Source of the DNA: Holosporaceae bacterium
GTDB taxonomy: Bacteria > Pseudomonadota > Alphaproteobacteria > UBA3830
Length of the DNA: 35,272 nt
Direction: 5' to 3'
Assembly (NCBI GenBank): GCA_031288395.1
Contig: JAITRM010000016.1
Location: forward strand, 1 to 35,272
Shown here: one piece after another, positions 30,309 through 35,073 of the stretch
How the letters are laid out: each line of letters opens with the position of its first letter
Position numbering within the stretch: position 1 is the first letter of the stretch
Notes under the pieces: generated by a model
Databases searched by the model: none
The model's input: the letters and a program-made list of their open reading frames with translations, nothing else
Told to the model about the DNA's origin: nothing
Program-made: the position numbers and the translations under genes

Positions 30309-32252
30309 ATGAACACTTGCGTTGTGTCGGTTCTTCCTTCGGTACCCCTGGATGGCAGCTTTTCGTATCTATCGGAAGCAAATTTGGAAATTGGCGATCT
30401 GGTCAAGGTTCCTTTTGGGATGAGAGAAGTTATCGGTTTGGTTACCGGAGATCCAGTTGACGCCAATAGAGAACTGAAAAAAATATCTTCTGTTTTGAAT
30501 TTCAACATCGGCGCGGAAAATTGCAAATTTTTACGGTGGGCGTCTTCCTATAATTTGATGCCTGCGGGAAGCGTTTTAAAGATGATATTGGCCGAAAAGA
30601 CAGTTTTTACGGTCAAAGGAAAAAATGATCTTGCTCCGGAAAAAATAAACGCCGGTGACTTTAGGGATATAGAACTGAATCCGGAGCAAAATCTAGCCTG
30701 TGCTAAAATTGTGGAAAATGAGTGCAAACCATTTCTGCTGGATGGAATAACCGGATCTGGTAAAACGGAAATATACTTATCCGCGGTTAGAGATACTCTG
30801 CTAAAGGCTCGGCAAGCGCTGATTCTATTTCCGGAGATTGCTCTAACTAGTCAAATATCACTGCGCGTCGAAAAATACTTCGGATTTCAGCCGATGATCT
30901 GGAATTCCAATGTTAATGCCGTAAGTAGAAGATTGATTTGGCGTCAGGCAATAGCCGGAGAGCCATGTCTTGTGGTTGGCGCTCGTTCTGCGCTGTTTCT
31001 CCCGTTTAAAAATTTGGGATTGATTGTTGTGGACGAAGAGCATGATTCCTCGTACAAACAGGAAGAGGGCGGATTTTATAATGCTCGGGATATGGCGGTC
31101 GTGCGGGGCAATTTGCTGAAAATTCCGGTGATTTTATCGTCTGCAACTCCATCCATAGAAAGCATATTAAACGCCGAGAACAGAAAATACGGATACGCGT
31201 CTGTTAAAAGCAGATACGGCGCATCACAGGTGCCGTCCGTTGACCTGGTCGATATGCGGCAGAATAAGTTTGATGGGTTCATTTCTCCAATCTTGCTAAA
31301 TGAAATAAAAAGAAACATATCGCGGGGAGAACAGTGCCTAATTTACCTGAATAGGCGCGGCTATTCCCCCATAACGCTCTGTCAATCCTGCGGAGAGAAA
31401 ATCATGTGCCCGAACTGCAGCGCGTGGTTGGTGCAGCATCGGAATATGGACAAGCTGCTCTGCCACTATTGCGGTCATAAAATGAGCGTTCCGAATGTAT
31501 GTGGTAATTGCGGCGCAGAAAAATCTCATATCCCATTTGGTCCCGGGGTTGAAAGAATCTTTGACGAACTTCAGGCGAAATTACCGACCGTGCGCATCGA
31601 AATTGCCTCCTCCGATACCATTGGTTCCGCAAAAAGCATCGAAACTCTGTTCCAGAAAATCATTAACAATGAAGTTGATATAGTTGTTGGCACCCAGATA
31701 TTGGCGAAGGGACATCATTTTCCAAACATCACTTTGGTGGGCGTTGTGGATGGTGATTTGGGACTGAACGGAGCGGATCTCCGCGCATCTGAAAAGACTT
31801 ACCAGCTCATTAGTCAGGTAGCGGGTAGGGCAGGGCGCGCGGAAAAGCCAGGAAAGATTCTGATACAGACATTTAATCCAGACCATTCGCTCTATGCCGC
31901 GCTAAAATCAAATAATGTGAAAAAATTTTTAGATTTAGAAATTAAATTTCGCCGGGAAAGGGAATTGCCACCATTTTTCAAATTTGCTGCAGTCATAATT
32001 TCCGGTGTCAACAGGGAATTAACGAAAAAAATTGCTCAAAATTTAGGAGAAACATGTCCGAAAAGCGTAAAAATGTATGGACCGGCTCCGGCTCCACTTT
32101 TTCTACTTCGTGGAAGAACTAGATGGCGAATTTTACTCAAGTCCTCAAAAAAAATTTCCCTAAATAATGTCATAAAACAATGGATATTTTCTCAAAAAAT
32201 ACCAAAAAACATTAAAATTCAAATAGATATTGATCCAAACAATTTTTTGTAA
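30309..32252 (+). CDS. priA: Primosomal replication-restart helicase PriA
   Basis: 647 residues, about 80 shorter than typical PriA; the shortfall lies in the N-terminal DNA-binding part (residues 1-120). Walker A GITGSGKT is at 146-153, DEEH at 242-245, and the helicase motif VGTQILAKGHHFPNITLV near 480. All eight zinc-binding Cys are present (358, 361, 367, 370, 385, 388, 398, 401). PriA reloads DnaB at collapsed forks and recombination intermediates. No clear promoter was seen in the 158-base gap shared with dapA. Confidence 0.96.
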   Translation: MNTCVVSVLPSVPLDGSFSYLSEANLEIGDLVKVPFGMREVIGLVTGDPVDANRELKKISSVLNFNIGAENCKFLRWASSYNLMPAGSVLKMILAEKTVFTVKGKNDLAPEKINAGDFRDIELNPEQNLACAKIVENECKPFLLDGITGSGKTEIYLSAVRDTLLKARQALILFPEIALTSQISLRVEKYFGFQPMIWNSNVNAVSRRLIWRQAIAGEPCLVVGARSALFLPFKNLGLIVVDEEHDSSYKQEEGGFYNARDMAVVRGNLLKIPVILSSATPSIESILNAENRKYGYASVKSRYGASQVPSVDLVDMRQNKFDGFISPILLNEIKRNISRGEQCLIYLNRRGYSPITLCQSCGEKIMCPNCSAWLVQHRNMDKLLCHYCGHKMSVPNVCGNCGAEKSHIPFGPGVERIFDELQAKLPTVRIEIASSDTIGSAKSIETLFQKIINNEVDIVVGTQILAKGHHFPNITLVGVVDGDLGLNGADLRASEKTYQLISQVAGRAGRAEKPGKILIQTFNPDHSLYAALKSNNVKKFLDLEIKFRRERELPPFFKFAAVIISGVNRELTKKIAQNLGETCPKSVKMYGPAPAPLFLLRGRTRWRILLKSSKKISLNNVIKQWIFSQKIPKNIKIQIDIDPNNFL

Positions 32253-32352
32253 AATTAACGTATTGTAAATCAATTTGTTTTAGATTGGAGAAGACGTGTA
32301 AAAGCCGAAATGTATTTAACGGCTACTCGTATTTTGATTGAGGGTATTTACG

Positions 32353-34434
32353 ATGGTTGAAAGCACTCAGCATACCTTGGATAGAATCCGCTCTCCGCGA
32401 GTACAAATCACCTATGACGTGGAGATTGGCAACGCCATCGTCGTGAAGGAATTGCCATTCGTTATGGGAGTTATGGCTGATTTATCCGGTATGCCAACTG
32501 ACCCTCTACCTCCAATGAAGTTGAGGAAATTTGTGGAAGTTGACAGAGACAATTTTCCAGAGTTTATGCTTTCCATAAGCCCGAGATTATCTTTCCAGGT
32601 GAAAAACACTTTGGGTGATGGCGTGGACGGCTTGAGCGCCGAGTTGTTTTTCAAGCACATTGATGATTTTAGCCCCATCAGCATTGCCCAGCAGGTGCCA
32701 AAGCTGAGTAAAATTTATAACTCAAGAATAAGGCTTAATGACCTCGTGGTGAAGCTGGAGGGAAACGATGTTCTCCAATCCCGTCTCAGGGAAATTGTGG
32801 AAAACGCAGATCTAAAGGCTGCTCTCAAGCAGCAAATTGACGCTCTGCTGAAGGCCAATAAACAGACCATAACTGCTGATTTTGCGACTACTTTGGGGTC
32901 AGCGGGCTCCAAAGATGCTGCTGCGGCTGCGGCAACGCCTCCGCCGGCCGGCGCGACGCCAAATGGGGCAGCGGCTCCGACAGAGGCCGCAAAACCCGCT
33001 AGAGAAATCCTCAAGGAACTGTTTACGGATGGAAAATTGGCTCGTGATCCAGGAGCTGAGGTGTACGCCTGCAACATATTAATAGAGTTGTTGGCTAAAA
33101 TTGAGGCAGAAAAATTAACAACCATGAAAAATGCTCTCACCTATGTGGAGAGGCTGACGGCTGATATTGACGCAATCCTGAGTACGCAAATCAGCGAAAT
33201 TTTGCATCATCCGGCGTTTCAGACACTGGAGGGAACCTGGAGGGCGCTGTATTACCTCGTGATGAATACGGACACCGGCGCTCATCTGAAAATAAGGGTG
33301 ATGAACGCTACCAAAAAGGAGCTTCTGGATGATCTGGAGCACACCATCGAGTTTGATCAGAGTCAAATATTCAAAAAAGTATACGAGGAGGAGTACGGCA
33401 CCTTCGGCGGTCATCCATATTCATGTTTGATTGGCGGTTATGAATTCACGCGAAGCGCGCAGGATCTGATATTGCTGGAAAAAATGTCCAACGTTGCGGC
33501 GGCGGCCCATGCTCCGTTTATAGCAGCGGCGCACTCCAAATTGTTTGACATGGACAGCTTTGCGCAGCTAGCGGGCCCGAGAGACATATCGAAAATCTTC
33601 GAAAGTACCGAAATGATGAAATGGAATTCCTTCCGGGACAGCGAGGATTCCCGCTATGCTGCTCTGGTTATGCCGAAGATCCTGATGAGATTGCCCTATG
33701 GACCGGACACGCTGCCGGTGGAGGGCATAAACTACGTGGAATCCGTAGATGGCTCGGATAGTTCTCAGTTCTGCTGGGGAAATGCTGCCTTTGTTTTAGC
33801 TCAACGGATAGGCAATGCGTTTTCCCTATACAAATGGCCAGCCGCCATCCGCGGAGTCGAAGGCGGCGGTCTCGTTGAGAGTCTTCCCGCATATATGTTT
33901 AAGACCACTGACGGCGATATTGCCCTAAAATGTCCCACCGAGATAGCAATTACGGATCGACGTGAGAAAGAGTTATCGGATATGGGATTTTTGGTAATAT
34001 GCCACAGTAAGGGAACGGATTTTGCGGCATTTTTCGGCGGCCAAACCGTCCAAAGGCCGAAAGTCTACAACACAGACGACGCCAACGCCAATGCGGCTCT
34101 GAGTGCACGGCTTCCGTATCTGCTGGCCGCCTCAAGATTCGCTCACTACATCAAATCCATCATGCGGGACAAAATAGGATCATTCCTGACCAAAGAAAAC
34201 GTCTCCTTCTATCTGAATAACTGGATAGCTGATTATGTGCTCCTAAACGATTCGGCAAGCCAAACGCTAAAAGCCAAATACCCACTAAGGGAGGCTCGCA
34301 TAGACGTATTCGACGTTCCAGGCAAACCGGGGTCCTATAAGGCCACCATTTTCCTGAGGCCGCACTTTCAATTGGAAGAGCTAACGGCCTCCATAAGATT
34401 GGTCGCGACCCTACCGCCGCCGGCGAGCGGCTGA
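32353..34434 (+). CDS. tssBC: Type VI secretion sheath protein, in-frame TssB-TssC fusion
   Basis: 693 residues as one open frame. Residue numbers below count from a TTG five codons upstream at 32338; the ATG at 32353, with GAGGG before it, is preferred. Residues ~7-180 are a complete TssB (VipA): ESTQHTLDRIRSPRVQITYDVE start, KELPFVMGVMADLSG, KFVEVDRDNF and FKHIDDFSP. Residues ~181-220 are an Ala/Pro/Gly-rich linker. Residues ~221-698 are a complete TssC (VipB): LARDP, LEGTWRALYYLV, KVYEEEYGTFGG, EKMSNVAAAAHAPFI, SEDSRY, RLPYGPDT, EIAITDRREKELSD, MRDKIGSF and the C-terminal RPHFQLEELTASIRLVATLPPP. In other systems these two separate proteins assemble 1:1 into the contractile sheath. The fusion fixes that ratio. 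It is followed by an hcp-like gene, as in canonical tssB-tssC-hcp order. Confidence 0.93.
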   Translation: MVESTQHTLDRIRSPRVQITYDVEIGNAIVVKELPFVMGVMADLSGMPTDPLPPMKLRKFVEVDRDNFPEFMLSISPRLSFQVKNTLGDGVDGLSAELFFKHIDDFSPISIAQQVPKLSKIYNSRIRLNDLVVKLEGNDVLQSRLREIVENADLKAALKQQIDALLKANKQTITADFATTLGSAGSKDAAAAAATPPPAGATPNGAAAPTEAAKPAREILKELFTDGKLARDPGAEVYACNILIELLAKIEAEKLTTMKNALTYVERLTADIDAILSTQISEILHHPAFQTLEGTWRALYYLVMNTDTGAHLKIRVMNATKKELLDDLEHTIEFDQSQIFKKVYEEEYGTFGGHPYSCLIGGYEFTRSAQDLILLEKMSNVAAAAHAPFIAAAHSKLFDMDSFAQLAGPRDISKIFESTEMMKWNSFRDSEDSRYAALVMPKILMRLPYGPDTLPVEGINYVESVDGSDSSQFCWGNAAFVLAQRIGNAFSLYKWPAAIRGVEGGGLVESLPAYMFKTTDGDIALKCPTEIAITDRREKELSDMGFLVICHSKGTDFAAFFGGQTVQRPKVYNTDDANANAALSARLPYLLAASRFAHYIKSIMRDKIGSFLTKENVSFYLNNWIADYVLLNDSASQTLKAKYPLREARIDVFDVPGKPGSYKATIFLRPHFQLEELTASIRLVATLPPPASG

Positions 34435-34503: not shown

Positions 34504-35073
34504 ATGCCAAAAACGCCAACAGAAGGAAGTGTCTTGACCGGAGATATCGGAGCTTACGAAGCCGCAAAGCAAAAAAACTCCACAAGATCGATCAGTTGCA
34601 CCATAGAAACTGAAGGACCCAGCGACATTTTTTCCAGCGAAATTAAGGACCGGGAGGGCGCCGCCACTTGTCACAGAGTGAGCTATAGGTGTGAAAGGAT
34701 CACGGGCGGCGACGCATCTTCAGGAGAACTACCGAATTTCGGCCCCATTGAATGCTACGATATAACAGTTGAAATGGAATATGGTTCTTGGGCCACGGGG
34801 TTACAAGATAAACTACACGGCGGTACAATCATAGAGAAAATAACCATACGTAGATCTATGAACATAAAAAACAAACTTGTTGATATTCAAGTGACAACCT
34901 ACGAAGTATGCACAATCAAAAGCTACTACCAGGTAGGGGATACGATAGTTTTTTCCTTCAAGGCGGTAAGGAGAGTCGACGCAAATGTAGCTCACAATCT
35001 TGACGGCACAAAGCTTGGGCAATCCGTGGTTATCTATGATTCGGCTACGGGAGAAGCTACCAGCGAAACGTGA
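34504..35073 (+). CDS. hcp: Hcp-like type VI secretion tube protein (TssD), divergent
   Basis: 189 residues. The identification is by position directly after tssBC and by alignment by eye of residues ~82-160: YDITVEMEYGSWATGLQDKLHGG followed by TIIEKITIRRSMNIKNKLVDIQVTTYEVCTIKSYYQVGD and TIVFSFKAVRRV. These match the Hcp order of beta-strands (DxSxTK..D..SP.L..A...G..I..A.L..RK...YL...L....V.SY...G...V.LNF). An N-terminal extension of ~28 residues and a C-terminal tail lengthen it beyond the usual ~160-172 residues. Five Cys (32, 56, 63, 84, 136) are unusual for Hcp. Hcp hexamers stack into the expelled inner tube. An effector-bearing or otherwise modified Hcp cannot be excluded. Confidence 0.7.
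   Translation: MPKTPTEGSVLTGDIGAYEAAKQKNSTRSISCTIETEGPSDIFSSEIKDREGAATCHRVSYRCERITGGDASSGELPNFGPIECYDITVEMEYGSWATGLQDKLHGGTIIEKITIRRSMNIKNKLVDIQVTTYEVCTIKSYYQVGDTIVFSFKAVRRVDANVAHNLDGTKLGQSVVIYDSATGEATSET

Follow-up and report, generated by a model that had tools for sequence, protein, structure and literature searches.

Natural fusion of the type VI sheath proteins TssB and TssC in Holosporaceae, its repeated origin, and its association with the absence of ClpV

The type VI secretion system (T6SS) works as a "spear gun" driven by a contracting sheath that is usually made of two proteins, whereas phage tails and pyocins use one. The window analyzed here, meaning the whole stretch of 35,272 nucleotides, carries both T6SS sheath proteins in what the initial annotation described as a natural in-frame fusion with both halves complete. 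Is this a genuine sheath gene, and if so, how would a single-chain sheath come about and function? The window corresponds to contig C7 of a genome (G000) that comprises 787 kb in 37 contigs and is ~95% complete, and its nearest named relatives are metagenome-assembled genomes labeled "Holosporaceae bacterium" or Alphaproteobacteria. The family to which it belongs (f1) appears to be gut-dwelling, judging partly from rumen and omasum sample records.

The sheath gene is a single uninterrupted open reading frame of 693 codons that runs from TssB through TssC with no stop codon or frameshift between the halves. Its start is the ATG at 32353 and its stop codon lies at 34432-34434; the earliest start proposed by the ORF tool is a TTG at 32338. 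The features of the locus are as follows.

30309..32252, + strand: priA, the conserved upstream neighbor of tssBC in f1; context, outside the T6SS (Pfam, flank comparison)
32353..34434, + strand: tssBC, fused TssB-TssC sheath gene, 693 aa (ORF reading, Pfam, NCBIfam)
32380..32838, + strand: TssB/VipA half, PF05591, aa 10-162 (Pfam; same match in the genome search, G000:C7:32380-32838)
32905..32997, + strand: hypervariable Ala/Pro-rich linker, aa ~185-215, predicted disordered (family alignment, AlphaFold2 pLDDT)
32998..33048, + strand: conserved helix, the original TssC N-terminus, now internal, aa 216-232 (family alignment, 9n4v alignment, AlphaFold2)
33151..34053, + strand: TssC/VipB sheath domain, PF05943, aa 267-567 (Pfam)
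34081..34413, + strand: TssC/VipB gpW/gp25-like C-terminal domain, PF18945, aa 577-687 (Pfam)
34504..35073, + strand: divergent Hcp (TssD) tube protein of 189 aa, separated from the upstream tssBC by 69 nt (predicted fold)

Searching each half against its Pfam family, as had been proposed, gave matches far above the cut-offs: PF05591 (T6SS_VipA) in the TssB half (E 5e-46, 156.8 bits versus a cut-off of 24) and PF05943 (VipB) in the TssC half (E 3e-125, 417.6 bits versus 27), with PF18945 (VipB_2) also above its cut-off (E 4e-43). Both NCBIfam equivalogs were exceeded and covered nearly in full, namely TIGR03358 for the small sheath subunit (aa 6-163, 159.6 bits versus 97.25) and TIGR03355 for the large one (aa 218-688, 650.3 bits versus 271.5). 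The locus departs from the two separate subunits of TssB/TssC sheaths in being one frame without a conserved internal start, and we therefore class it as a variant of that sheath. The natural fusion is thus confirmed, as a variant T6SS sheath rather than a new type of system. The open-licence literature yielded no description of a natural TssB-TssC (VipA-VipB) fusion, only fusions to fluorescent proteins, and an earlier mention elsewhere is possible.

Across f1, a TssB match was found in 37 of the 41 genomes examined, and TssB and TssC share one frame in all 37, including three in which the gene is cut by a contig end but still joined. Separate tssB and tssC genes at this locus, which had been named in advance as the observation that would speak against a fusion, are absent within the family. 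Wherever the flank was long enough, tssBC directly follows priA, with one exception. Strong purifying selection acts on each half: compared to the genes of two close relatives, the window gene has a dN/dS of 0.031-0.043 in its TssB half and 0.017-0.035 in its TssC half, against 0.15-0.24 in the linker. These ratios are rough because dS is high (0.9-2.5).

The junction combines a variable and a constant part. In 31 family sequences, the mean pairwise identity is 72% for the TssB core, 63% for the TssB tail, and 85% for the TssC core; it falls to 13% in the linker and returns to 72% in the TssC N-terminal helix, which has a fixed length. The linker (27% Ala, 12% Pro) varies from 14 to 62 aa across the family. 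The Ala/Pro-rich linker of the initial annotation is therefore real, but its size of ~40 residues has been revised to 31 aa in the window gene. AlphaFold2 gave a pLDDT below 50 at 175-214, a prediction of disorder, and placed a helix at 219-226. With a fixed-length helix beside a variable, disordered stretch, the junction reads as a conserved TssC N-terminus behind a free-running disordered tether.

The sister family f3 has separate tssB and tssC genes that do not adjoin priA, likely the ancestral state; on both grounds, they do not refute the fusion. There, the tssB stop codon is followed by the tssC ATG 9-14 nt on, with a Shine-Dalgarno (SD)-like sequence in three of four cases. The simplest history would be that the tssB stop and the tssC start were lost, with the linker deriving from the former end of TssB and the former leader of TssC. 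In G039, a separate TssB (L182:7529-8440) carries a ~130-residue Lys/Thr-rich tail and is followed by an overlapping tssC, an arrangement that resembles an unfused linker. At L180 (G043:C9), an in-frame TAG interrupts tssC after ~154 codons, by error, decay, or readthrough.

The fusion is not limited to f1. Among 385 alphaproteobacterial and 398 phylum-wide genomes surveyed, frames of fused size turned up in additional families, and their sequences were verified to hold both domains within a single frame in further alphaproteobacteria (G058, G194, G301, G133, G200, G376, G330, G407, G295, G066, G374, and G363) and in three non-alphaproteobacterial genomes of 2.5-4.2 Mb (G615, G430, and G479). 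Most fusions fall in small-genome alphaproteobacteria, including families unrelated to f1. Mapped onto a TssB+TssC tree of 84 rows, the trait requires 10 changes, of which well-supported branches force at least five, and a single fused clade was rejected (AU test, p-AU 3.7e-6). A well-supported 27-row subset, from which most long branches had been removed, still contained four forced changes; it rejected both a single fused clade (p-AU 2e-35) and a grouping of f1 with G301 (p-AU 7e-5), in whose family the other members (G073, G379, and G204) have separate genes. A single origin, by descent or by transfer, is thus ruled out by the AU tests. The fusion arose repeatedly and independently and is polyphyletic, and because separate genes are the rule outside the fused groups, the direction of change was presumably from separate to fused. 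Linker design varies with origin: long in f1, it is reduced to 5-9 residues in f17 (11 in one member), f143, and f21, and the non-alphaproteobacterial fusions lack the TssC helix at the junction. At L234, L235, L238, and L241, in several lineages that are mostly fused, an insertion of ~15 to 100 residues splits the TssB domain match mid-domain.

The gene downstream of tssBC had no sequence match in Pfam, NCBIfam, or the PDB. Its AF2 model (pLDDT 84.7) matched Hcp1 structures in Foldseek (4w64, E 2e-12; 1y12, TM 0.83 by target) at 12-13% identity, and the product is accordingly predicted to be a divergent Hcp tube protein. A review states that the T6SS of Holosporineae apparently lacks TssD and TssJ (PMC11909080); a divergent Hcp may explain reports of TssD-less systems in Holosporales. 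Another study, by contrast, describes tssB, tssC, and hcp as one block in related families (PMC8163844), a finding that the Hcp-fold neighbor fits and extends to f1. At L194 (G005:C1, 8674-9895), two tandem Hcp-like genes follow the fused tssBC. In three f3 genomes (L178 in G038, L179 in G041, and L180 in G043), a compact operon begins with tssB-tssC and continues with two divergent-Hcp-like proteins of ~170-190 aa and then tssE-like, tssF (PF05947-confirmed), and tssG-like genes.

Further parts of the machine lie elsewhere in the window genome: TssK at G000:C1:18069-19037 and TssF at G000:C4:27689-29413, both of which were found in most of f1. One member, G007 (96% complete), has TssK and TssF but no detected tssBC, through a contig gap or sheath loss. 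Searching the order (50 genomes, the sister family among them) with PF06761 turned up no TssM/IcmF, although divergence below detection is possible; the TssM membrane complex may have been lost, replaced, or become very divergent in the order, and the machine may be atypical.

ClpV is the dedicated ATPase that recycles the T6SS sheath. No TssH/ClpV above the TIGR03345 cut-off was found in 50 genomes of the order; hits of ~800 bits behave like ClpB and also occur in the T6SS-less family f2. The best candidate in G000 is a ClpB (1162 bits to TIGR03346) whose N-terminal domain is missing. This 711-aa protein (L188:3004-5136, G000:C5) is the sole ClpB-type disaggregase of the window genome; the ClpB of its genus mates G001 and G002 is similar, and that of many family members is ~855 aa long. 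ClpV was likewise absent from all 12 other fused alphaproteobacteria tested and was not found in G430 or G479. A ClpV gene is present in G615 (C1:314417), but its neighbor at a distance of ~10 kb is the separate tssB (C1:324060) of a second T6SS and not the fused copy at C1:250813. No fused system with its own ClpV was therefore seen. Outside the alphaproteobacteria, an own ClpV accompanied none of three fused systems, compared to 54 of 55 genomes with separate-gene T6SSs (Fisher p 1.3e-4), these 55 genomes not being phylogenetically independent. The fusion is thus apparently confined to systems without their own ClpV. ClpV is also missing from 20 of the 31 separate-gene alphaproteobacteria tested, so its loss looks permissive for fusion but not sufficient.

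Taking these results together, we favor, at a probability of roughly 0.8, the reading that tssBC encodes the sheath of a working, ClpV-less T6SS. Its product would be a single-chain protomer of ~76 kDa that takes the place of the TssB-TssC heterodimer in a covalent 1:1 ratio and polymerizes, uncut, around the Hcp tube encoded by the adjoining gene. The disordered linker would tie the TssB C-terminal end to the TssC N-terminal end, which meet inside the heterodimer, and would leave free the neighbor-tying arms, namely the TssB N-terminal strand and the TssC C-terminal strand, much like the arms of single-chain phage and pyocin sheaths. In a solved sheath, these handshake arms and the adjacent TssB and TssC termini have been described (PMC5807055). 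Fusion in gene order joins the termini that meet and frees the arms, which makes a B-to-C fusion structurally easy. The AlphaFold2 model of the fusion, a monomer, is of moderate confidence (pLDDT 68, pTM 0.63), and its Foldseek comparison (TM ~0.6 by target, rmsd ~10 Å or more) is silent on packing. An earlier loss of ClpV, which recognizes the TssC N-terminal helix, probably permitted the joining; the contracted sheath would then be used once or be cleared by ClpB, as in Francisella. The fusion could affect sheath stoichiometry and dynamics.

Several other accounts of the same gene were weighed. The product might be a polyprotein whose linker is cleaved after translation, so that ordinary TssB and TssC assemble and the fusion only couples their synthesis at 1:1. 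A disordered, hypervariable linker would indeed be accessible to proteases, but no cleavage motif is conserved in it across the family, and the 5-9-residue linkers of several independent fusions (f17, f143, and f21) indicate that cleavage is not needed in general; we regard this account as rather improbable. Still less probable is internal initiation in or after the linker, which would yield fused protein plus free TssC and hence mixed sheaths. A few in-frame ATG, GTG, or TTG codons do lie near the helix, among them a GTG at about codon 235 of the window gene with an AGGAG stretch upstream. A start there would, however, delete the conserved helix. Most separate-gene relatives have an SD and an ATG, but no conserved internal start with an SD was found in the fused genes: at 56 of 73 fused loci there is no such start, and the candidates in the remainder sit at differing places. 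This lack speaks against an internal TssC start. As for a gene in decay or an error of assembly or binning, the genomes are metagenome-assembled, but the same joined frame in 37 of them rules out an artefact or frameshift, and with dN/dS well under 1 for each half, the chance of either is negligible.

In canonical systems, ClpV targets the TssC N-terminal helix (PMC10433429, PMC5807055), and a fused TssC has no free N-terminus, which offers a plausible reason for the association. In f1, the helix that ClpV would bind is nevertheless conserved, which simple loss of constraint does not explain; it may pack in the outer layer of the sheath or be read by ClpB. The association could instead reflect only shared ancestry and genome reduction, with fusion as neutral drift in small genomes. 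Most fusions do occur in alphaproteobacteria with small genomes, a group in which ClpV is frequently lacking in any case, but the three non-alphaproteobacterial fusions lack their own ClpV in larger genomes where ClpV is otherwise near universal. We consider this account less likely than not, though a serious contender. Tentatively, and with somewhat less than even confidence, we propose that T6SS sheaths have repeatedly reverted to a phage-like single chain only after ClpV loss, that the TssB/TssC split with its free TssC N-terminus is an adaptation to ClpV recycling, and that a fusion is the sign of a sheath that fires a single time or is recycled in another way.

Among solved sheaths, the closest to the window fusion is 9n4v (Azotobacter vinelandii extended sheath, according to its Foldseek label), to whose chains the halves align at E 2e-211 and 9e-50. 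The window genome resembles canonical TssB/TssC systems in having TssK, TssF, and an Hcp-fold protein, and differs from them in its one chain, its lack of ClpV, and the scattering of its genes over contigs. Francisella also lacks ClpV, and there the general disaggregase ClpB clears contracted sheaths in its place (PMC5481754), but the window-genome ClpB is without the N-terminal domain, and IglA and IglB (3j9o) are separate and distant from the fusion (IglB E 5e-70, IglA E 1e-5). Phage gp18, R-pyocin, and extracellular injection (eCIS) sheaths share the use of one polypeptide per subunit and are not recycled by ClpV (PMC5807055), but they belong to another sequence family and were matched weakly by Foldseek (eCIS 7ae0, E 0.25). 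All strong sequence and fold matches of the fusion are T6SS sheaths, and the likeness to these single-chain sheaths is one of function, not membership. The systems of Holosporales/Paracaedibacteraceae share the order tssB-tssC-hcp and scattered clusters; unlike the window, they are described with separate tssB and tssC, and the accessible text does not mention a fusion (PMC8163844).

What is new here is the recurrence of the fusion and its association with the absence of ClpV. Repeated fusions in systems without their own ClpV lead to the testable idea that the TssB/TssC split serves ClpV recycling, and a single-chain protomer would be convenient for structural studies of sheaths. For the poorly studied gut symbionts that carry it, the fusion may serve as a simple genomic marker of non-canonical T6SS dynamics.
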